NCBI RefSeq assembly: GCF_900142515.1
Contig: NZ_FRBC01000002.1
Coordinates: 1-64,000 of the forward strand
Source: Pseudoselenomonas ruminantium
GTDB taxonomy: Bacteria; Bacillota; Negativicutes; Selenomonadales; Selenomonadaceae
Reading direction: 5' to 3'
DNA: 64,000 bases
A model generated the notes under the pieces. That model ran no database searches. It had not been told where the DNA came from and saw nothing but the letters and a program-made list of their open reading frames with translations. Within the stretch, counting starts at the first letter, position 1, and the number at the start of each line of letters is the position of its first letter. Shown in pieces: positions 40,601 to 62,302 of the stretch. A program made the translations under genes and the position numbers.

Positions 40601-41350
40601 TCAACGCAGATAATCGTCTTCATCAATGCCCCGCAAGCGGCGGTTAATGGAGCTGAGCCCCCTATAGATGGTGGTCACATCGAGCTCATCCCCGCGCTTC
40701 TCCATGTACTTCTCCAACTTCCGCTTCACGCGCTGCAAAGCGTTGTCGATGGATTTCACATGGCGGTGCAGATCCTCGGCAATCTCCTGATAGCTCTTGC
40801 CATCGAGATAGCTCATGAGTACCTTCCACTCCAAGTCAGAGAGGATCTCCTCCATCTTCTTTTCGATGTCCACAAACTCTTCCCGACTGATGACCAACTC
40901 TTCCGGATCTGTGACCTTGGCTCCGGAAAGGACATCCAGGAGGGTTCTATCCGAATCCTCATCATAGATGGGCTTGTTCAGCGAAATATAAGAGTTCAGC
41001 GGAATATGCTTCTGCCTCGTCGCGGTCTTGATGGCCGTGATGATCTGCCGTGTCACACACAGTTCAGCAAAAGCGCGGAAAGATGACAGCTTGTCATTGC
41101 GAAAATCCCGTATCGCTTTGTAAAAGCCAATCATGCCTTCCTGAATGATGTCCTCACGATCTGCTCCAATCAAGAAATAGGAACGAGCTTTGGCGCGCAC
41201 GAAATTACGATATTTGTTGATCAAATAATCCAACGCGGCTTTGTCGTTGCTATCCTTGATGGCCAGCAGTATCTCCTCGTCCGTGAGTTTGGCGAATTCA
41301 CTGTAGATTTCTTCTACAAATAAATCTTCTGTAGTCTGTTCTGCTTCCAT
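40601..41350 (-). CDS. sigH: RNA polymerase sigma factor of the SigH family
   Basis: 249 residues from ATG 41350 (ribosome site AAGGGG). Region 2 includes DREDIIQEGMIGFYKAIRDF, and region 4 includes LDGKSYQEIAEDLHRHVKSI. It resembles sigma-H, which in Bacillus starts sporulation and post-exponential genes. It has an unusual C-terminal extension of about 25 residues after region 4. The following genes secE, nusG and rplKAJL of the Firmicutes order are not present; modABC follows instead. Confidence 0.92.
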   Translation of the reverse strand: MEAEQTTEDLFVEEIYSEFAKLTDEEILLAIKDSNDKAALDYLINKYRNFVRAKARSYFLIGADREDIIQEGMIGFYKAIRDFRNDKLSSFRAFAELCVTRQIITAIKTATRQKHIPLNSYISLNKPIYDEDSDRTLLDVLSGAKVTDPEELVISREEFVDIEKKMEEILSDLEWKVLMSYLDGKSYQEIAEDLHRHVKSIDNALQRVKRKLEKYMEKRGDELDVTTIYRGLSSINRRLRGIDEDDYLR

Positions 41351-41414
41351 CGCACGTTCCCCTTTACTGAAAACTTCCCCAGTTTTCATTCTTGCAATCC
41401 CCTAGTACGCTTTG

Positions 41415-51978: not shown

Positions 51979-52689
51979 TTAATACGGATATGTTACCTCA
52001 ATCTGCTCAATCTTGGGGCTGGACGGGGAGCCGTCCGTAATTCCCATGACCACTACCGTCATATCATCCGATGCTTTGTCCGCATCCAAAGACAGGGCAT
52101 AGTCCATGATGCTCTTGGCAATGAAGGACACATCCTCTGCCTCGTTCTTGCGGACAATCTCCATGATTTTCTCAAAATCAGCTGCCTTGCCGCTGCGCTT
52201 TCTCCCGGCATGGGCAATGCCGTCGGTATAAGACACGATGATCATGCCCGCCGTCAGCGGCACCTCATACATCAAGGGCTTCATATGGCGATTGACACCG
52301 ATCGGCTCCACATTCTCATCATAGACCGTCTCATACTCCGGCGTTCTGATGATGACCGGACAGTTGGAATTGCGGCTGATGACCGCCGTTTCCGTATCGA
52401 GGTCAGCACTGACCACCGTCAACGTGCAGGAAACCTTCTTGTCTTTCATGGCATAAAGATAATCATGCACCGCCCGGGCCACTGCCCCATCACGGGCGCC
52501 GTCAGAAATCAGCTGCGTGGCCTTATTCACGACCCAGCTGCTGGTATGATGGGCCGCCAGGCCATTGCCCTGCCCATCTGCAATGATTGCCGAAATCCCT
52601 CCATGAGGACGCTCGACAATATCACACGTATCGCCACAGACCTCTGTTGCATATTTAGAAGTCTTGGCCATGCCAATCTTTACTTCCAT
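51979..52689 (-). CDS. Stand-alone PP2C-type (SpoIIE/RsbX-like) serine phosphatase domain
   Basis: About 236 residues from ATG 52689 (AGGGGAG eight bases upstream). PP2C metal-site motifs are visible as IIADGQGNGLAAHHTS (D-G), VSYTDGIAHAG and ASDDMTVVVMGI. It has no sensor, HAMP or membrane segments. In sporulating relatives similar proteins dephosphorylate STAS antagonists or SpoIIAA. A partner-switching operon lies 3 kb further upstream in this window, so a link is possible but unproven. Confidence 0.82.
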   Translation of the reverse strand: MEVKIGMAKTSKYATEVCGDTCDIVERPHGGISAIIADGQGNGLAAHHTSSWVVNKATQLISDGARDGAVARAVHDYLYAMKDKKVSCTLTVVSADLDTETAVISRNSNCPVIIRTPEYETVYDENVEPIGVNRHMKPLMYEVPLTAGMIIVSYTDGIAHAGRKRSGKAADFEKIMEIVRKNEAEDVSFIAKSIMDYALSLDADKASDDMTVVVMGITDGSPSSPKIEQIEVTYPY

Positions 52690-52702
52690 AACACACACTC
52701 CC

Positions 52703-55851: not shown

Positions 55852-58071
55852 TTAAGGTTCACTCATCTCCCCGAAAAACTTCAGTCCCAGCATGGTAATG
55901 TCATCAGATTGCTCCGCAGCCCCGGCGTAGACACCCACATCCTGCCGGACAGCGGCAAGGATTTCTTTCACATTCTTTTCCCCCTGTGCATTCAGCGTTG
56001 CCTGCAGGCGCTCTTCTGAGTACATATCTTCCTCCTCGTTCATCGCCTCCGTCACGCCGTCCGTATAGAGGAAAATCATGTCTCCGGGCTGAAGGACAAG
56101 GCTATGGGACACATATAACCCGTCCTCGTTCACACCGAGCATCATATGCTTTTTCTTATGCTGCAGATAGCGGAACCTGCCATTTTCCTGCACCAGCGGC
56201 GGATTATGCCCGCCATTTACATAGATAAGTTCACCCGTAACCAGATTAAGCTGAGCGATAAACACCGTGACGAACATCATTTCCTCATTTTCCCGGCAAA
56301 GCTCCTGATTGGCCAATGTCATAACGGCAGCAAAATCATCGGGAGATTGTGCCATCAGCACCAGATTTTTCAATGTCGTTTTAGCGCGCATCATATAGAG
56401 TGCTGCGGGAATGCCCTTGCCGGACACATCGGCAATGGTAATGACAATATGATTTTCATCCGTCAGGTAAAAATCATAAAAGTCTCCGCCCACGCCCTTG
56501 GCAGCATCCATGGACGCATAAATCTGGAAATCTTTGCGGTTGGTCATAAAATCCTGTGGCAATGCTCCAAGCTGTATACTTTGCGCCACGGAAAGCTCCG
56601 CTGCCACTTTTTCCCGCTCGGCCGTTACCCGAGAGAGATTATCGATATATGCTTTCAGCTCATCCGTCATGGCATTGAAGCAGACGGCCAAATGCTCGAT
56701 TTCATCGCCAGTCTTTATCTCCAGCTTCTTATCCAGATTGCCGCTGGCGATCTCTCTCACGCCGTCAGCCATCTGCTTGATGGGTTTGACAAAGCGGTCA
56801 GAAAGACGCTCCGACAGGAAAAACATGATGACAATCATGATGAAGAGTGCCAACAGAGCCGCCTTCAACAGGAAGAGATACTCATTCTGCAGATTTTCCT
56901 TGAATTTATCCATCTGCCCCATATAGTAATTCTGACTTTCCTGAAGAGAAGACATCATATCATCCTGTGACACCAGAATGCCAAGGCTCCACCCAATAGT
57001 AGGGATAGGGGCAAAAGCCAGCATATACTTCTCGCCGCCTATTTCCACAGGCATCATGCCTTTTTCGCCCCCGGCCATCTGCTGGGCGGCCTGAGCCAGC
57101 TCTGGCACTTCGCTCTTTCGCAAATCCTGCGGCTTATCTGTCTCTGCCAGCACGCCTTCCTGCTGGGGCGAAAAGACAATCCTGCCTTCATTGGTCATGA
57201 CAAAGTTAATGCCTTTTTCCCCAATAATCGTACCATGAATATACTTCCGCAGCTTCTCCGTAGCCATATCTATGCTGGCTACGCCGGCAACCCCTGCCGC
57301 ATCGTAATAAGGGACAGAGCAGCTAATTACCTCCACATCATTGTGTTCCTCGTTCAAGATTGTGATATAAGGCAGGGAAAATACCGCCTTATTGGCGTTG
57401 ACGGCATTTATATACCAAGGCCGGATCCGGGGATCATAGTCAAAAGCCGGATCATCAGACAGGGGACTGTACTCATCGCCGGGGAATACGCTGCTGCAGA
57501 TCAGGAAGCCGTGTTTGCTGCCGAAATAAGTGGCTGAATAGCTGTCATTGCCGTAAGACTTTTCCATAGGCACCAGCGTGCCCTTGATATTGGCAGCCAG
57601 CTCCACTTCCTTCTGTACCGTTTCGATGCCACGCTTCCGCACATCAGGGCTGTAAAGAATGCACGGCGCAGTAGGCGGGACTTTCCCGTTATACAGGTCA
57701 AAGACGTTCCCCGGCAGGAAGTTTTCCGGATGCAGCTGTATCCAGGTCAAAGACTCTGACAGAATCTGCACATCATGCTGCATCAGCGACATTTCCCGGT
57801 CAATATACCCGGCTTCTGCCTTGGCCAGTTCTGCCAGTGTGTCCTTACTGGTCTTGTTGATATACTGCTTCGTGTACTCAGCCCCCGACTCCGAGAGCTG
57901 CGTCCCCATATCGGCTATGTCCTTGCGGACAAAGGTAATGCCATAAAAGGACAGCCCTGCAAACACCAGGGCCGACAGCAGGCTGCTAATAACCAGCAGA
58001 CGCAGCAGACGTGCCCTGATATTTGTCTGCCCGCGCATCATTTCTCGTAATATCCGCAGGAACTCTCCCAT
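55852..58071 (-). CDS. Membrane sensor with HAMP and PP2C (RsbU/SpoIIE-type) phosphatase domain
   Basis: 739 residues. A first membrane helix (about 22-45) is followed by a large extracytoplasmic Cache-like sensor (about 46-390), a second helix (LLKAALLALFIMIVIMFFLS), a HAMP linker (PIKQMADGVREIASGNLDKK) and a PP2C domain from about residue 515. Metal-binding motifs are GVGGDFYDF, ADVSGKGIPAALYM, LYTDGVTEAMN and SDDITMLG. It should sense an external ligand and dephosphorylate a STAS antagonist. It is the last gene of the operon with a STAS protein, an RsbW kinase and two RsbW-symporter fusions. Confidence 0.93.
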   Translation of the reverse strand: MGEFLRILREMMRGQTNIRARLLRLLVISSLLSALVFAGLSFYGITFVRKDIADMGTQLSESGAEYTKQYINKTSKDTLAELAKAEAGYIDREMSLMQHDVQILSESLTWIQLHPENFLPGNVFDLYNGKVPPTAPCILYSPDVRKRGIETVQKEVELAANIKGTLVPMEKSYGNDSYSATYFGSKHGFLICSSVFPGDEYSPLSDDPAFDYDPRIRPWYINAVNANKAVFSLPYITILNEEHNDVEVISCSVPYYDAAGVAGVASIDMATEKLRKYIHGTIIGEKGINFVMTNEGRIVFSPQQEGVLAETDKPQDLRKSEVPELAQAAQQMAGGEKGMMPVEIGGEKYMLAFAPIPTIGWSLGILVSQDDMMSSLQESQNYYMGQMDKFKENLQNEYLFLLKAALLALFIMIVIMFFLSERLSDRFVKPIKQMADGVREIASGNLDKKLEIKTGDEIEHLAVCFNAMTDELKAYIDNLSRVTAEREKVAAELSVAQSIQLGALPQDFMTNRKDFQIYASMDAAKGVGGDFYDFYLTDENHIVITIADVSGKGIPAALYMMRAKTTLKNLVLMAQSPDDFAAVMTLANQELCRENEEMMFVTVFIAQLNLVTGELIYVNGGHNPPLVQENGRFRYLQHKKKHMMLGVNEDGLYVSHSLVLQPGDMIFLYTDGVTEAMNEEEDMYSEERLQATLNAQGEKNVKEILAAVRQDVGVYAGAAEQSDDITMLGLKFFGEMSEP

Positions 58072-58137
58072 AATCCGAACTCCTTCATATATTTGCTAAA
58101 TCTCATGCCATCATACATCGGTCCACGAAAGCGCCTT

Positions 58138-59745
58138 TTACGAACTACGGTTATAGATATCAATGTCCATCTGCTTTTCACTGGCTGCCACCAAAAGTGT
58201 AGACGTTATATTTCCCACTACGCTCTGGGCCGTGCCAGGCATATCCATAAGTGGTTCAATGCCGATAAAATGTATGATTGCTGTCCCCGGAATCCCCATA
58301 CTCTCCAATACAGAGGGCATGACCAAAAGCCCCACCCCGGTCAGTGCCATCAAAAACTCCACAAAAAAGAGGGAAAGCAAAAAATCTGCATCAATGGTCA
58401 CATCAAATGTACAGGCCAGCATCATGGACACCACAGAAACATAGTAAGCTGTGCCGTCCATATTAAACTGCATGCCTACAGGAATGGCAAATTTGCTCAG
58501 TCTTTCATGAATCCCCAGTTTCTCTGTGCAAAAGGAAAGTGTAGCTGGCATACAGGCATTGGAACTGCTGGTAGAAAAGGGCAACAGGCTGAAAGGTATG
58601 GCTCTTTTCAGAAATGGAAGCGGTGAGAGCCTGGCAGCCAGGGCGATGAGGGCTGCTGAAATGATAAAACAAAGCGGAAGCCCCAAGGTTGTCCCCAGCA
58701 GCAATCTTCCATAGGCTATCAGCCCCCACGGTCCCACATGAAGAATCATCTTGGCCGTAGAAATCCCCACCATGAAAGGCAACAGACGGCTCATGACACC
58801 GACAATTTCCATGGTAAATCTGCTCAGAAAGTCCACGCCCTCCCTGGCCCAGTTCAAATCTCCCTCCATACGGTTCAAAATCACACCAGATAAACAGGCC
58901 AGGAAAAGGGTCTGCATGATATTATTGCCAGCGAAAGGGGTGATAAAATTACCCGGCACAATTCCTGTAAGCAGGGCACGAATGCTAAGCCCGGCTGTTT
59001 CCGGAGCTGCACCGCCGGCCATGATGGTAGAAAGCATCTCCTTCATTCCGCCTATGCAATATCCCACCATAAGCCCTGCCGCCACATAGAACGCCAGCTT
59101 GGCAAGGGACCACACAACCAGATGCCAGCCAATACGGCCTAAGCTGGCCGAATCGGACATACTTATAATACCGGCTATGACTGAGAAAAAAATCATGGGG
59201 GCCACAGCCATCATCAAGGCATTTATAAATACAGTCTGCACTGCGTCAATAAGGACACTGGCAATCCACATATTGTTCTCATGGCTGACAAATACGTACA
59301 TCAATGTCCCTGCCAAAGCACCAACAATCAAGCCCAGGATTATGTTACGCACTTCGCTGCCAATAGACTCGTGGGGATGGATATATACCACATTCTCCCG
59401 GCCAGACCACTTTCTGGCATAACGCATCTTCTTGCGGTGGGCACTCAGGAGCGCATAACCAAGAACGTCTTCATCATTGTCTTCTGACCAAGGAACCAAC
59501 GGATTGCATTCTTCACCCTCCACCACAAAAACCAAACTCACATCACTAAAGCGCTTTTTGAGAGAAAGTCGTGCACTAAAATCATCAGGATGGTCCTCAC
59601 GCTGGGAGAATCGGAGAAAAAGCTCTTCCACCAGCATCTGGGCCACATATATCTCGTTCTCTTTGAGGTTCTCCCTGGCAAGATTTGTCGCAATCCAGCC
59701 CATAGCATCAGGGATATTTTCCCTGTTTATGACCAAACTGTCCAT
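58138..59745 (-). CDS. Degenerate RsbW-like domain fused to a DAACS symporter (paralogue 2)
   Basis: 535 residues. Residues about 1-120 align with the RsbW-type kinase encoded two genes upstream: VAQMLVEELFLRF matches its N-box region but has R where the Mg-binding Asn should be, and EGEECNPL replaces the DxGxPFNPL box. Residues about 130-530 form a glutamate/dicarboxylate:cation symporter with STSSSNACMPATL (HP1) and QFNMDGTAYY (NMDGT motif intact). The helix 8 motif reads MDMPGTAQSVVGN, so the substrate-binding Arg and the last sodium-site Asp of this family appear lost. It lies 48 bases after its paralogue. Confidence 0.88.
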   Translation of the reverse strand: MDSLVINRENIPDAMGWIATNLARENLKENEIYVAQMLVEELFLRFSQREDHPDDFSARLSLKKRFSDVSLVFVVEGEECNPLVPWSEDNDEDVLGYALLSAHRKKMRYARKWSGRENVVYIHPHESIGSEVRNIILGLIVGALAGTLMYVFVSHENNMWIASVLIDAVQTVFINALMMAVAPMIFFSVIAGIISMSDSASLGRIGWHLVVWSLAKLAFYVAAGLMVGYCIGGMKEMLSTIMAGGAAPETAGLSIRALLTGIVPGNFITPFAGNNIMQTLFLACLSGVILNRMEGDLNWAREGVDFLSRFTMEIVGVMSRLLPFMVGISTAKMILHVGPWGLIAYGRLLLGTTLGLPLCFIISAALIALAARLSPLPFLKRAIPFSLLPFSTSSSNACMPATLSFCTEKLGIHERLSKFAIPVGMQFNMDGTAYYVSVVSMMLACTFDVTIDADFLLSLFFVEFLMALTGVGLLVMPSVLESMGIPGTAIIHFIGIEPLMDMPGTAQSVVGNITSTLLVAASEKQMDIDIYNRSS

Positions 59746-59793
59746 TCCTCATCCACCCTGACTTGTCACCTAATCAATTTCATGTCAGCAGCC

Positions 59794-61416
59794 CTACTCT
59801 GCATAGTAGACCTCTTCCTGAACCTTCCCCTCCATGCGGGCCAGCAGGAAAGATGTGGTGGCATTAGACACAGCATTTCCCACAGTCCTGATGCCATCCA
59901 CCAACGGGTCAATACCGATAAACAGCGTAATCGCCCCGGCGGGGACTCCGGCCATTTCAAAAATAGAGGCCATTACCAATACCGTTGCCCCGGGCACGCT
60001 GGGAAAGGTAAAGGTTACCAACAGGGCCGCAAAGAAGAAAGAAAGCATGAATTCCATATCAATGGGCATTCCCAGGGTAAGGCGCATCAGAATCGCTGCC
60101 GTCATGGCATACATGCCTCCGCCACTCATGTTGAACTGTATACCCATGGGAATCGAGAACATGGCCAGCTTCTCATCTATGCCCAATTTTTCGGCGCAGA
60201 ACTCCAGCGTCTGGGGAATGCAGGCATTGGAGCTTCGTATGTTAAAGGGCAGCAGGCTGTAGGAAGCTGTCTTCTTCAAAAAGGCCACCGGCGATATCCG
60301 TCCTATTACGGCCACAAAGAGTCCCGATACCAGCAGCATCAGGAAACAGCCCAGGAAGATAGCACCAATAAACCAGACATAGACCAGCAGGGCAGAAATT
60401 TCCACGCTCATCATGAGCTTTGCCATAGAGGCCGCCACCACCAGAGGCAGGAAGGGCATGATGACCCCCATGGCATCCATGACCAGCTGATAGAAGGAAG
60501 CTATAGTCTCCTTCATCCAGGCCAGACGCTCCCCGGACTTAACCAGCAGCAGACCAAAGAAACAGGAGATAAACAGGATTTGCAGCAGATTGTTGGAAAC
60601 AAAGGGTGCCACAACATTCTTCGGCACAATGCCCAATAGCAAGTCCCGGAAGGACAAGGGGGAAGCCTCCACAGTTCCCATCTCCGCTGTCTCAACCAGT
60701 TCGGGCATAGCCCCCAGCCAGCTGCCAAGGAGCACCGCTATCCCCAGGGCAAACACCAGCTTGACCACCGATATGACCATCATCTTGCCGCCCATGCGCC
60801 CCACATCAGCCGCATTGGAAATGCTGAGAATGCCGGACACCACCGAAAGGAAAATCATGGGGGCAATCATCATCTGGAGGACACTCATGAACAGGATTTC
60901 CACGGAACTGAAGATATTGTGCTCAATCCAACCCAAGGCTTCCGTTCCCAGACAGGATTTGAGCACCAGCCCCAGCATGATGCCTCCTGCCATGCCGAGC
61001 AGCATATGATACATCTGCTTGTTGCTTGACTCATGCACCTGAATGGAGACGATATTGCATCCCTGCCGCCGCACATAGCTCATCTTCTGCCGATAGGCCT
61101 TCAGGCTGGCCAGAACGTAACGCTCCTCTTCGTCATCGGAGTTTTCATCCAGTTCAATGACAGGATTGTGGGGTTCCCCCTTGGCGGTAAGCAAAAGATT
61201 CACATCTCCCAACCGCTTCTGCAGGGAAATCTCTGCCGCAAAGCCTTCAGGATTGCCGGAAGCTGCCGCCAGCCGCAGGAAATTCTCCTCCAGCAAAAAC
61301 TCAGCTGTCATCATTTCCTGTCGGCTCACTTTTTTGGCTTCAAGTGCCTCTTCCAGCCATTCCACGGCTTCTGGATAGCTTGCCTTGGAAATTCTGAACT
61401 GCTTGATGGCTGACAT
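59794..61416 (-). CDS. Degenerate RsbW-like domain fused to a DAACS symporter (paralogue 1)
   Basis: 540 residues from ATG 61416 (AAGGAAGTGG upstream); an earlier ATG at 61437 directly follows the RsbW stop. The N-terminal 120 residues look RsbW-derived (FLLEENFLRLAAAS, AKGEPHNPV, then LASLKAYRQKMSYVRR), but the kinase residues are replaced. The symporter domain has RSSNACIPQTL, and a changed NMDGT motif (FNMSGGGMYA). Its helix 8 reads VDGIRTVGNAVSN, so the substrate Arg and the Asn are kept and the last Asp is again Asn. The losses are complementary to those in the downstream paralogue. Confidence 0.88.
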   Translation of the reverse strand: MSAIKQFRISKASYPEAVEWLEEALEAKKVSRQEMMTAEFLLEENFLRLAAASGNPEGFAAEISLQKRLGDVNLLLTAKGEPHNPVIELDENSDDEEERYVLASLKAYRQKMSYVRRQGCNIVSIQVHESSNKQMYHMLLGMAGGIMLGLVLKSCLGTEALGWIEHNIFSSVEILFMSVLQMMIAPMIFLSVVSGILSISNAADVGRMGGKMMVISVVKLVFALGIAVLLGSWLGAMPELVETAEMGTVEASPLSFRDLLLGIVPKNVVAPFVSNNLLQILFISCFFGLLLVKSGERLAWMKETIASFYQLVMDAMGVIMPFLPLVVAASMAKLMMSVEISALLVYVWFIGAIFLGCFLMLLVSGLFVAVIGRISPVAFLKKTASYSLLPFNIRSSNACIPQTLEFCAEKLGIDEKLAMFSIPMGIQFNMSGGGMYAMTAAILMRLTLGMPIDMEFMLSFFFAALLVTFTFPSVPGATVLVMASIFEMAGVPAGAITLFIGIDPLVDGIRTVGNAVSNATTSFLLARMEGKVQEEVYYAE

Positions 61417-61437
61417 TTTTCCACTTCCTTTATCCAT

Positions 61438-61869
61438 TCAGATTAGACTAGTTTCAGCCAAAGAGAAAGAATATTGGCTTTTTCCCTGAAAGTCCTCATA
61501 TACATACTCTATCCTGTCAAAACTTTTGCGCACGAGATGAATGCCCAGGCCGCCTTCCTCCCGTTCCTCCACAGGCAGGCCTTCAGAGTGGCGCATATCT
61601 TCAGCCAGGGGATTGAAGGGACGGCCATAGTCGGCAAAATCCAGCCGGAAAAGCGCCCCTTCCCTTCGTGCCCTAATCCAGACAGCCCCAGGGTCATCGT
61701 AGGCATAGTCTATGATATTGATCAGCATTTCCTCTATGCCCAGTTCCGGCTGAATTTCTCTTGTCTCAGAGGTGCCAGCCGCTTGGGCACTTGCCATGAT
61801 GTCATCCCGCATGGTGTCATACATTTCCCTGATGGCAGGATATTCCCGCCATTCCGACAAACCATTCAT
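61438..61869 (-). CDS. RsbW-type anti-sigma/serine kinase
   Basis: 143 residues, a HATPase_c domain with the N-box GIEEMLINIIDYAYDDP (Asn present), the DYGRPFNPL box and the lid/G-box EEGGLGIHLVRKSFDRIEY. All key ATP-binding motifs are intact, so it should phosphorylate a STAS partner. The partner is probably the STAS protein encoded 24 bases upstream. No sigma factor lies in the operon, unlike classical rsb loci. Confidence 0.9.
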   Translation of the reverse strand: MNGLSEWREYPAIREMYDTMRDDIMASAQAAGTSETREIQPELGIEEMLINIIDYAYDDPGAVWIRARREGALFRLDFADYGRPFNPLAEDMRHSEGLPVEEREEGGLGIHLVRKSFDRIEYVYEDFQGKSQYSFSLAETSLI

Positions 61870-61893
61870 GCCATCACCTCCGGCCTGCTGGCA

Positions 61894-62226
61894 TCACAAA
61901 TCATCCAGGGATTCACGCAGATTCAGGAGCGTATCCATATTGCTGTATGTCAGCACGGTCTTCACCGCCCCGGCAGCTCCTGCCACCGTGAACTCCTTGC
62001 CTTCCTTCTTGGCCTTCTTCAACAGGCGCAGCAGCACACGGAGCCCGGCACTGGAAATATAGACCACGCCGCTCATATCCAGGACAGTCTTCTCTTCACG
62101 CTCCACAATTGCCTCACCGCTTTGGTAAACCGAGTCAGCAGTAGAAATGTCTATGCGGCCTTCAACGCTCCAGGCCAACCAGCCGTTTGCCAATTTCGTT
62201 TCCTTCTGCACAATTTCGCTTGCCAT
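61894..62226 (-). CDS. STAS-domain anti-anti-sigma-type antagonist (RsbV-like)
   Basis: 110 residues. The STAS fold includes AWSVEGRIDISTADSVYQ and VLDMSGVVYISSAGLRVLL, whose Ser (in SSAGLR) is the usual phosphorylation site. It is the first gene of a five-gene operon, with GGAGG eight bases before ATG. By analogy with RsbV, the kinase phosphorylates it and the phosphatase at the operon end reactivates it. What it releases or binds, possibly the RsbW-like domains of the symporters, is unknown. Confidence 0.9.
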   Translation of the reverse strand: MASEIVQKETKLANGWLAWSVEGRIDISTADSVYQSGEAIVEREEKTVLDMSGVVYISSAGLRVLLRLLKKAKKEGKEFTVAGAAGAVKTVLTYSNMDTLLNLRESLDDL

Positions 62227-62274
62227 GATATTAACCTCCTAGCAATCCAAAACATCATACGCCCCAAAAACACA

Positions 62275-62302
62275 TGTATAAAATCTCTACAGACACTGTC
62301 AA
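62275..62302 (-). promoter_or_regulatory. Promoter of the partner-switching operon
   Basis: TTGACA (62302-62297), 16 bases, TATACA (62280-62275) on the minus strand, about 45 bases before the STAS start. Confidence 0.65.

Follow-up and report, generated by a model that had tools for sequence, protein, structure and literature searches.

A conserved operon joins a predicted partner switch to pseudokinase-tagged transporter proteins in Pseudoselenomonas ruminantium

An operon of Pseudoselenomonas ruminantium was found to combine the predicted parts of a partner switch, a STAS protein, an RsbW-type kinase and a PP2C phosphatase, with two membrane proteins in which an RsbW-like domain is fused to an SDF/DAACS transporter domain (fusion 1 and fusion 2). 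The operon lies in the window, the whole stretch of 64,000 nucleotides analyzed here (NCBI RefSeq assembly GCF_900142515.1, contig NZ_FRBC01000002.1, positions 1 to 64,000 of the forward strand), which belongs to a genome of 3.1 Mb in 59 contigs. It is real, conserved, and unusual, being a partner switch with pseudokinase-tagged transporter proteins. Our preferred reading, to which we give an even chance, is that the operon would be a partner-switching module with the SDF/DAACS membrane proteins as its effectors, the dephosphorylated STAS protein docking on a pseudo-RsbW tag.

Results

The operon and its switch proteins

Five co-directional genes, spanning 62226 to 55852 of the minus strand, encode the STAS protein, the RsbW-like protein, fusion 1, fusion 2, and the phosphatase, in that order. 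These gene types had been proposed in an earlier sequence-only reading and were confirmed by coordinates and Pfam matches (Table 1). The predicted phosphatase, STAS antagonist, and HATPase_c_2 kinase of an Rsb/SpoIIA-type partner switch are all present with intact motifs. In the kinase P0003, the N box (EEMLIN), G1 box (DYGRPFNP), and G2 box (GGLGI) are intact, while the STAS protein P0004 has the motif YISSAGL, the usual place of the phospho-serine, from which its phosphorylation is predicted. The PP2C metal-site motifs of P0005 are intact in an alignment with 12 relatives. Its dCache domain has Y..R.WY and the late Asp, and Thr two positions beyond the Tyr of PYI; the residues of this amino-acid motif were defined partly from PMC10104139, and no ligand is named for P0005. 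Both SDF domains scored above the PF00375 cut-off of 27.9 bits (252.5 bits for fusion 1 and 210.1 bits for fusion 2), and the fusion proteins resemble DctA-type C4-dicarboxylate carriers.

Table 1. Genes and domains of the operon, in window coordinates
Feature	Position	Strand	Length and evidence
STAS protein P0004, RsbV/SpoIIAA-like	61894..62226	-	110 aa; Pfam STAS_2 8.6e-16, STAS 3e-15; TIGR00377 58.3 bits (cut-off 53.45)
RsbW-type serine kinase P0003 (predicted)	61438..61869	-	143 aa; HATPase_c_2 6e-16
Fusion 1, P0001, whole	59794..61437	-	547 aa
Pseudo-RsbW N-domain of fusion 1 (P0001 residues 1-140)	61018..61437	-	hhalign, AlphaFold, Foldseek, VIA; ATP motifs lost
SDF/DAACS domain of fusion 1	59836..61008	-	Pfam SDF 9.1e-75, residues 144-534
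Fusion 2, P0002, whole	58138..59745	-	535 aa
Pseudo-RsbW N-domain of fusion 2 (P0002 residues 1-131)	59353..59745	-	36% identity to fusion 1 N-domain; in the profile compared by hhalign
SDF/DAACS domain of fusion 2	58183..59346	-	Pfam SDF 7e-62, residues 134-521
Membrane phosphatase P0005, dCache-HAMP-SpoIIE/PP2C	55852..58071	-	739 aa; SpoIIE 3.5e-48, dCache_1 1e-22, HAMP 1.6e-13

By coordinates, the intergenic gaps along the operon are 24, 0, 48, and 66 bases. The spacing of 24-66 bases given earlier holds for three of them and not for the second, where the stop of the RsbW gene abuts the start of fusion 1 (starts as listed). A single promoter for the operon, also part of the earlier reading, was not established, the promoter scan having returned an uninformative 12 sites against 7.7 ± 2.3 in shuffled sequences; one of the 12 (62282-62254, minus strand) lies upstream of the STAS gene.

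Chance or a frame artefact was ruled out by the long open frames, the Pfam matches, and the conservation across many genomes. An assembly or start-site artefact as the origin of the fusion was also ruled out: the joined frame is present in the 46 sequences of the first set (four of them pieces of less than 500 amino acids) and in named records including Anaerovibrio lipolyticus DSM 3074 and Selenomonas sp. AE3005.

Fold of the fused N-terminal domains

Because Pfam gave no direct match to the fused N-terminal domains, the RsbW-like assignment needed relatives, profile-profile comparison, and structure. HATPase_c_2 matched 11 of 26 diverse fused N-domains, a set that includes the two of the window, at E values up to 10 (best 9.5e-6). 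When the profile of these 26 domains was compared by hhalign with that of 19 intact RsbW proteins, 126 columns were aligned with a probability of 98.4% and an E value of 1e-14. The AlphaFold model of residues 1-140 of fusion 1 had a mean predicted local distance difference test score (pLDDT) of 89.8 and a predicted template modelling score (pTM) of 0.83. With this model, Foldseek ranked SpoIIAB (1tid) first (E 5.1e-4), RsbW fifth, and SiaB tenth. The VIA-align Z scores were 11.4 for UsfX, 11.2 for SpoIIAB, and 10.7 for RsbW (range 10.1-11.4 over the entries of these three proteins), followed by 8.9 for SiaB, 8.4 for LvrC, and at most 7.4 for histidine kinases.

The fused N-terminal domains are thus assigned the RsbW/SpoIIAB fold. 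The RsbW-like nature that had been proposed for both of them was borne out by hhalign, AlphaFold, Foldseek, and VIA-align. Lack of a HATPase fold had been named as what would speak against the proposal; Foldseek and VIA-align found that fold, and the proposal survives. Profile searches matched the STAS, SpoIIE, and SDF domains and the HATPase_c_2 domain of P0003, as anticipated, and did not match HATPase_c_2 on the fused N-domains of the window at E values up to 1.

Loss of the ATP-binding motifs

The N-box Asn, the G1 Asp, and the G2 glycines have ATP/Mg-binding roles, as established with SpoIIAB. A joint alignment was made of 68 fused domains and 26 intact reference RsbW domains, the latter chosen by a motif filter (EE...N or R, and GG.G), so that their N-box and G2 counts are set by selection. 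The N-box Asn was kept in none of the 68 fused domains, 45 of which have Arg there. The G1 Asp was likewise kept in 0/68 (Ala in 35) versus 26/26 of the reference domains, a count free of selection. The first two G2 glycines were kept in no fused domain and the third G2 column had Gly in 11/68, the alignment being gapped before G2 and single columns there less certain than the overall loss of the motif. Still conserved were the G1 glycine (68/68), the Pro of the NP pair (65/68), and the first Glu of EE (67/68), and the best-conserved patches of the fused domain were EE, GExYNP, and a late Asn.

The simplest reading of this pattern is that the fused domains would be conserved pseudokinases. Because the ATP-site residues are lost in all 68, they are probably docking sites and not kinases. 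The earlier description of an RsbW-like domain therefore stands for the fold and is refined in that the domain is degenerate, the N-box Asn, the G1 Asp, and the leading pair of G2 glycines being absent throughout the 68.

Distribution and genomic context of the fusion

The N-domain was found in 16 of 60 neighbourhood genomes, the window's own included, and with a two-row profile in at least 90 of 189 genomes of the order; where the matches in a genome are all weak, as in some of these, they may come from unfused RsbW-like proteins. Judged by eye, most of the matches listed in the order survey lie in frames of 520-600 amino acids and are fused. In a sample of the phylum, 13 of 398 genomes had a match. 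SDF fusions outside the class of the window were found in genomes G226, G343, G451 (two), and G596, the SDF domain being matched by Pfam at loci L171, L174, and L175; the phylum matches in G518 and G510 were a STAS-APH-HATPase_c_2 protein and an ABC protein with the domain at its C-terminus, respectively. The fusion is also present in two Prevotella records (L119 and L120), of which one is without a metagenome-assembly label. The predicted fusion is recurrent in Selenomonadaceae, other Firmicutes, and these two Prevotella records.

By eye, a probable exported protein of about 320 amino acids was seen upstream of a related class of fusions in both Prevotella records and in Selenomonas (L047, L050, L052, and L054). 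The pair shared by Prevotella and Selenomonas looks like a transfer of a two-gene unit between phyla.

To compare gene context, the SDF, SpoIIE, and STAS matches within 3 kb of each other were taken from 20 near-complete genomes picked as fusion holders. A fusion was counted as an SDF match in a frame of at least 525 amino acids, with G000:C27 and G027:C1 removed by hand (no N-domain listed). The plain SDF genes include three SDF fragments, and SpoIIE rows with E values of 6.8e-9 and weaker as well as the two weakest STAS rows were left out. Of the 36 fusions, 17 had a STAS gene within 3 kb and 8 a SpoIIE gene, compared with 1 and 0, respectively, of the 87 plain SDF genes (Fisher p 4e-10 for STAS and 3e-5 for SpoIIE), both p values being inflated by the kinship of the sequences. 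The sole plain SDF gene near a STAS gene was a 155-amino-acid fragment that itself lies near a fusion (G191:C7). The neighbourhood survey that the sequence-only reading had suggested thus gave a clear difference in STAS linkage.

The five-gene order of the window recurs at L057, and a STAS-RsbW-fusion-PP2C order is found at L040 and L060. Other arrangements are STAS-PP2C-fusion (L045), fusion-PP2C-STAS (L178), and a fusion followed 86-96 bases on by a STAS gene in four genomes (L167-L170). In G596 (L175), a Firmicute outside the class of the window, a STAS gene is followed by one for a protein with five transmembrane segments, SpoIIE, and HATPase_c_2, and then by a pseudo-RsbW-SDF fusion.

Of 67 distinct fusions, 47 had 3 kb on both sides, and a STAS gene was within 3 kb of 17, a PP2C gene of 11, and an RsbW-like gene of 7 of these, two of the RsbW-like neighbours being ABC-fused domains. 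The STAS, PP2C, and RsbW profiles were custom-built, and loci L167-L180 had been chosen partly for known neighbours; without the neighbour-selected loci, the corresponding numbers were 11, 10, and 7 among 38 fusions. Fusions with a STAS or PP2C gene within 3 kb were classed as linked and those with neither as solitary. In a tree of 65 fusions (51 labelled; two truncated fusions omitted and 14 of the 65 with flanks too short to be called solitary), the linkage state changes at least 8 times when only well-supported branches are counted, gains and losses not being distinguished. These data support the conclusion that STAS and PP2C genes accompany the fusions far more often than they do plain SDF genes of the same genomes, and in several separate clades.

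Three further observations concern the neighbourhood of the fusions and the operon. At L056 (the same place as L128) and at L126, a plain 413-amino-acid SDF gene adjoins a site-complete fusion, forming a tandem of tagged and untagged carriers. A 199-amino-acid protein that adjoins a fusion (L177:5333-5932; HATPase match 0.038) is possibly a free degenerate RsbW-like protein. In the window, a small SpoIIE-type phosphatase, P0006 (SpoIIE 1.2e-23), is encoded at 51979-52698 on the same minus strand, about 3 kb beyond the operon, and a similar frame of 237-285 amino acids (SpoIIE E ≤ 2.1e-17) is present in 17 of 20 fusion-bearing genomes.

Transport-site residues of the SDF domains

The NM pair of transmembrane segment 7 (TM7), the Arg of TM8, and the tip of helical hairpin 2 (HP2), which from work on GltPh we take to be substrate/cation-site residues of the SDF family, are all kept in fusion 1. 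Fusion 2 keeps the TM7 NM, and in the alignment its HP2 tip is five residues short and its TM8 Arg is replaced by Gly. Both the TM7 NM and the TM8 Arg are lost in seven fusions of the L038-L041/L060 class and in the G596 protein at L175, while the large solitary clade (L122-L132 and kin) keeps all three features. Overall, the three features were kept together in 4 of 23 linked versus 19 of 28 solitary fusions (Fisher p 5.5e-4). The possibility that linked fusions had turned into receptors was also considered, and independent pairs in the tree gave it no support, about 7 of 8 pairs being equal in their site residues. Judged by these residues, fusion 1 is the likelier regulated carrier, and fusion 2 may be a non-transporting partner or a receptor.

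RsbW-like domains on other transport proteins

All 12 MATE-type proteins that were checked (573-687 amino acids; L181:2582-4342 in G000 contig C20, L120:1593-3356, and L182-L199 being the loci of such fusions) had MatE over its Pfam cut-off and a C-terminal HATPase_c_2 match, which was over the cut-off in 7 and between 1.2e-4 and 0.0071 in the other 5. By eye, the MATE-fused domains vary, some keeping the N-box Asn and the G1 Asp, and several of the MATE fusions adjoin PP2C, STAS, or RsbW genes. Seven ABC ATPases of 368-386 amino acids carry a C-terminal RsbW-like domain with the motifs lost (by eye). HATPase_c_2 matched six of them below the cut-off (1.9e-4 to 0.004), and the seventh (L111) had no HATPase_c_2 match at 0.01 and was matched by the custom profile alone (6e-14). 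When two ABC members were compared with NCBIfam, the best models were EhuA, TcyN, and GlnQ, below the cut-offs of these models, pointing to the polar-amino-acid type. The ABC fusions (L109:1851-3011, L111:4653-5780, L112:4830-5954, L179:5309-6415, and L200-L204) come from Anaerovibrio and relatives and one more distant Firmicute.

The RsbW-like domains on SDF, MATE, and ABC proteins therefore have transport proteins as their common partner. A wider generalization, which we rate slightly below an even chance, is that an RsbW-type domain serves as a regulatory tag on transport proteins in Selenomonadaceae and some other Firmicutes. It would have been joined separately to the N-terminus of SDF proteins and to the C-terminus of MATE and amino-acid-type ABC proteins, putting transport, and not transcription, under the direct control of a STAS phosphorylation switch, the tag being dead on SDF and ABC proteins and partly degenerate on MATE proteins.

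STAS domains were also seen in unusual combinations. A STAS domain is joined to an APH-type kinase fold at L051:8281-9540, between a PP2C gene and an SDF fusion, and at L192:850-2064, beside a MATE fusion; at L099:301-1884, STAS and the APH-type fold are followed by a HATPase_c_2 domain (1e-24). The protein at L195:2047-3705 combines STAS with a Condensation domain (1.6e-37) and is flanked by a PP2C gene and a MATE-HATPase fusion, and STAS proteins of about 530 amino acids resembling it recur beside MATE fusions.

Discussion

Proposed mechanism and the points that weigh on it

In the proposed mechanism, P0003 would phosphorylate the STAS protein P0004, and the phosphatase P0005, under the control of its dCache domain, would dephosphorylate it. 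Unphosphorylated STAS protein would then leave RsbW and dock on the pseudo-RsbW tag, and since the tag would be unable to phosphorylate it, a stable STAS-tag complex would form. Docking would alter the activity of the SDF membrane domain, gating the transporter. For fusions with no STAS gene close by, the STAS partner would come from another locus. Three points favour the fusions as outputs: the operon has no other candidate effector, the site-complete clade bears the same tag, and other transport proteins also carry such domains. The absence of a sigma gene noted earlier was confirmed among the five genes of the operon, which include no cyclase or regulator gene as another output either.

Several results weigh against this mechanism. 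The direct Pfam search with fusions 1 and 2 returned SDF only, the N-domains having no match at E values up to 1, and a PDB sequence search with the N-domain profile returned no anti-sigma factor, the best hit (E 0.11) being unrelated. The linkage statistics come from genomes picked as fusion holders and carry the inflation given above. At L038 and L039 the order is STAS-fusion-PP2C with RsbW absent alongside. The fusions are solitary in 28 of the 51 context-classed cases and in 26 of 40 without the neighbour-selected loci. Finally, several linked fusions have lost the transport-site residues, which fits poorly with a carrier as the output.

This last point leads to the strongest rival, in which the fused SDF proteins are inputs, acting as transceptors: substrate occupancy would alter the capture of the STAS protein by the tag and thereby free or titrate RsbW, whose true output with the STAS protein would be encoded elsewhere in the genome. 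We consider it unlikely, although a serious contender. The incomplete site of fusion 2, the losses in the L038-L041/L060 class and in the L175 protein, and the lower share of site-complete proteins among linked fusions all speak for it, as does the precedent of the carrier DctA and the sensor kinase DcuS (excerpted text of PMC5703999). However, the phylogenetic pairing gave it no support, fusion 1 and the large solitary clade keep the site, and no separate output gene is present within the operon.

Two other explanations have a small probability in our estimation. In one, the N-domain would play a general regulatory role in the cytosol, for example, by stabilizing the trimer or binding a ligand, its RsbW fold being retained without further contact with STAS proteins. 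The many solitary fusions fit this explanation, and the conserved patches could serve folding alone, but against it stands the strong STAS-gene enrichment that fusions show and plain SDF genes do not, with several different gene orders. Equally improbable is an ordinary RsbV-RsbW-RsbU module whose target is a distant sigma factor, the SDF fusions being mere passengers of the operon: the STAS, RsbW, and PP2C proteins match known Rsb modules, and other sigma types exist in the genome, including a SigH in the window, but passengers explain neither an RsbW fold on transporters nor the recurrent linkage, and a SigB/F/G-type factor over the NCBIfam cut-off was found in 0 of the 10 genomes searched. 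The SigH gene (40601-41389; 400.5 bits vs 208), the nearest sigma gene in the window to which the search with the SigB/F/G models pointed, lies about 14 kb from the operon and by eye adjoins an rlmB-like gene.

Comparison with known systems

Partner switches are known to control sigma factors and a small number of other outputs, among them the cyclase SiaD. The RsbU-RsbV-RsbW and SpoIIE-SpoIIAA-SpoIIAB systems of Bacillus have the same three kinds of enzyme and substrate as the operon, where their motifs are intact, and the fused domain has the predicted SpoIIAB/RsbW fold, whereas here the operon has no sigma gene and each of two membrane proteins bears a dead version of the kinase domain. In CbrA-type sensor kinases, a transporter-like membrane domain and a signalling module share one polypeptide, as in the fusions, but these are two-component kinases and not a partner switch. 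The MlaFB complex is not known to have a PP2C/RsbW switch.

The SiaABCD system of Pseudomonas aeruginosa comprises a PP2C phosphatase, a kinase, and the antagonist-like target SiaC, with the diguanylate cyclase SiaD as output (excerpted text of PMC7647112). It resembles the operon as a non-sigma output of a PP2C/kinase/antagonist switch and in the structural match of the fused domain to SiaB, but P0005 reached only 98.4 bits against the SiaA cut-off of 700, and the five operon proteins had no GGDEF match. In Escherichia coli, the C4-dicarboxylate carrier DctA sets the responsive state of DcuS, an instance of a dicarboxylate carrier influencing a signalling protein of the membrane; as the excerpts of PMC5703999 present them, these are separate proteins, the partner is a histidine kinase, and the pair has no STAS or RsbW part. 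A precedent for a STAS protein within a transporter complex is MlaB, which belongs to the MlaFB portion of an ABC transporter; the regulation of this complex has been studied, but it is an ABC phospholipid system (excerpted text of PMC7367683). SLC26/SulP proteins with a STAS domain also join a transporter to a domain from the anti-sigma antagonist world, but there the STAS side is fused (PMC8256260), whereas in the window the fused side is that of RsbW and is dead. PMC11109136 names CbrA-type sensor kinases that contain a STAC domain.

No RsbW-SDF, RsbW-MATE, or RsbW-ABC fusion was described among the open-access matches listed in searches directed at fusions of this kind or at partner-switch control of transport, most subscription papers and the domain-architecture databases being outside the scope, which is weak evidence of novelty. 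The earlier statement that no system of this form has been described is consistent with these matches.

Significance

If the preferred reading is true, bacteria would have a new means of adjusting nutrient traffic by protein phosphorylation, in which a pseudokinase tag connects a partner switch to secondary transporters. A domain family that goes unrecognized by Pfam in the proteins of the window would also acquire a function open to testing, and the dead-kinase docking domain would offer a natural tool for examining partner choice by STAS proteins. The operon suggests that a circuit known for the control of gene expression has apparently been wired directly to membrane transporters.

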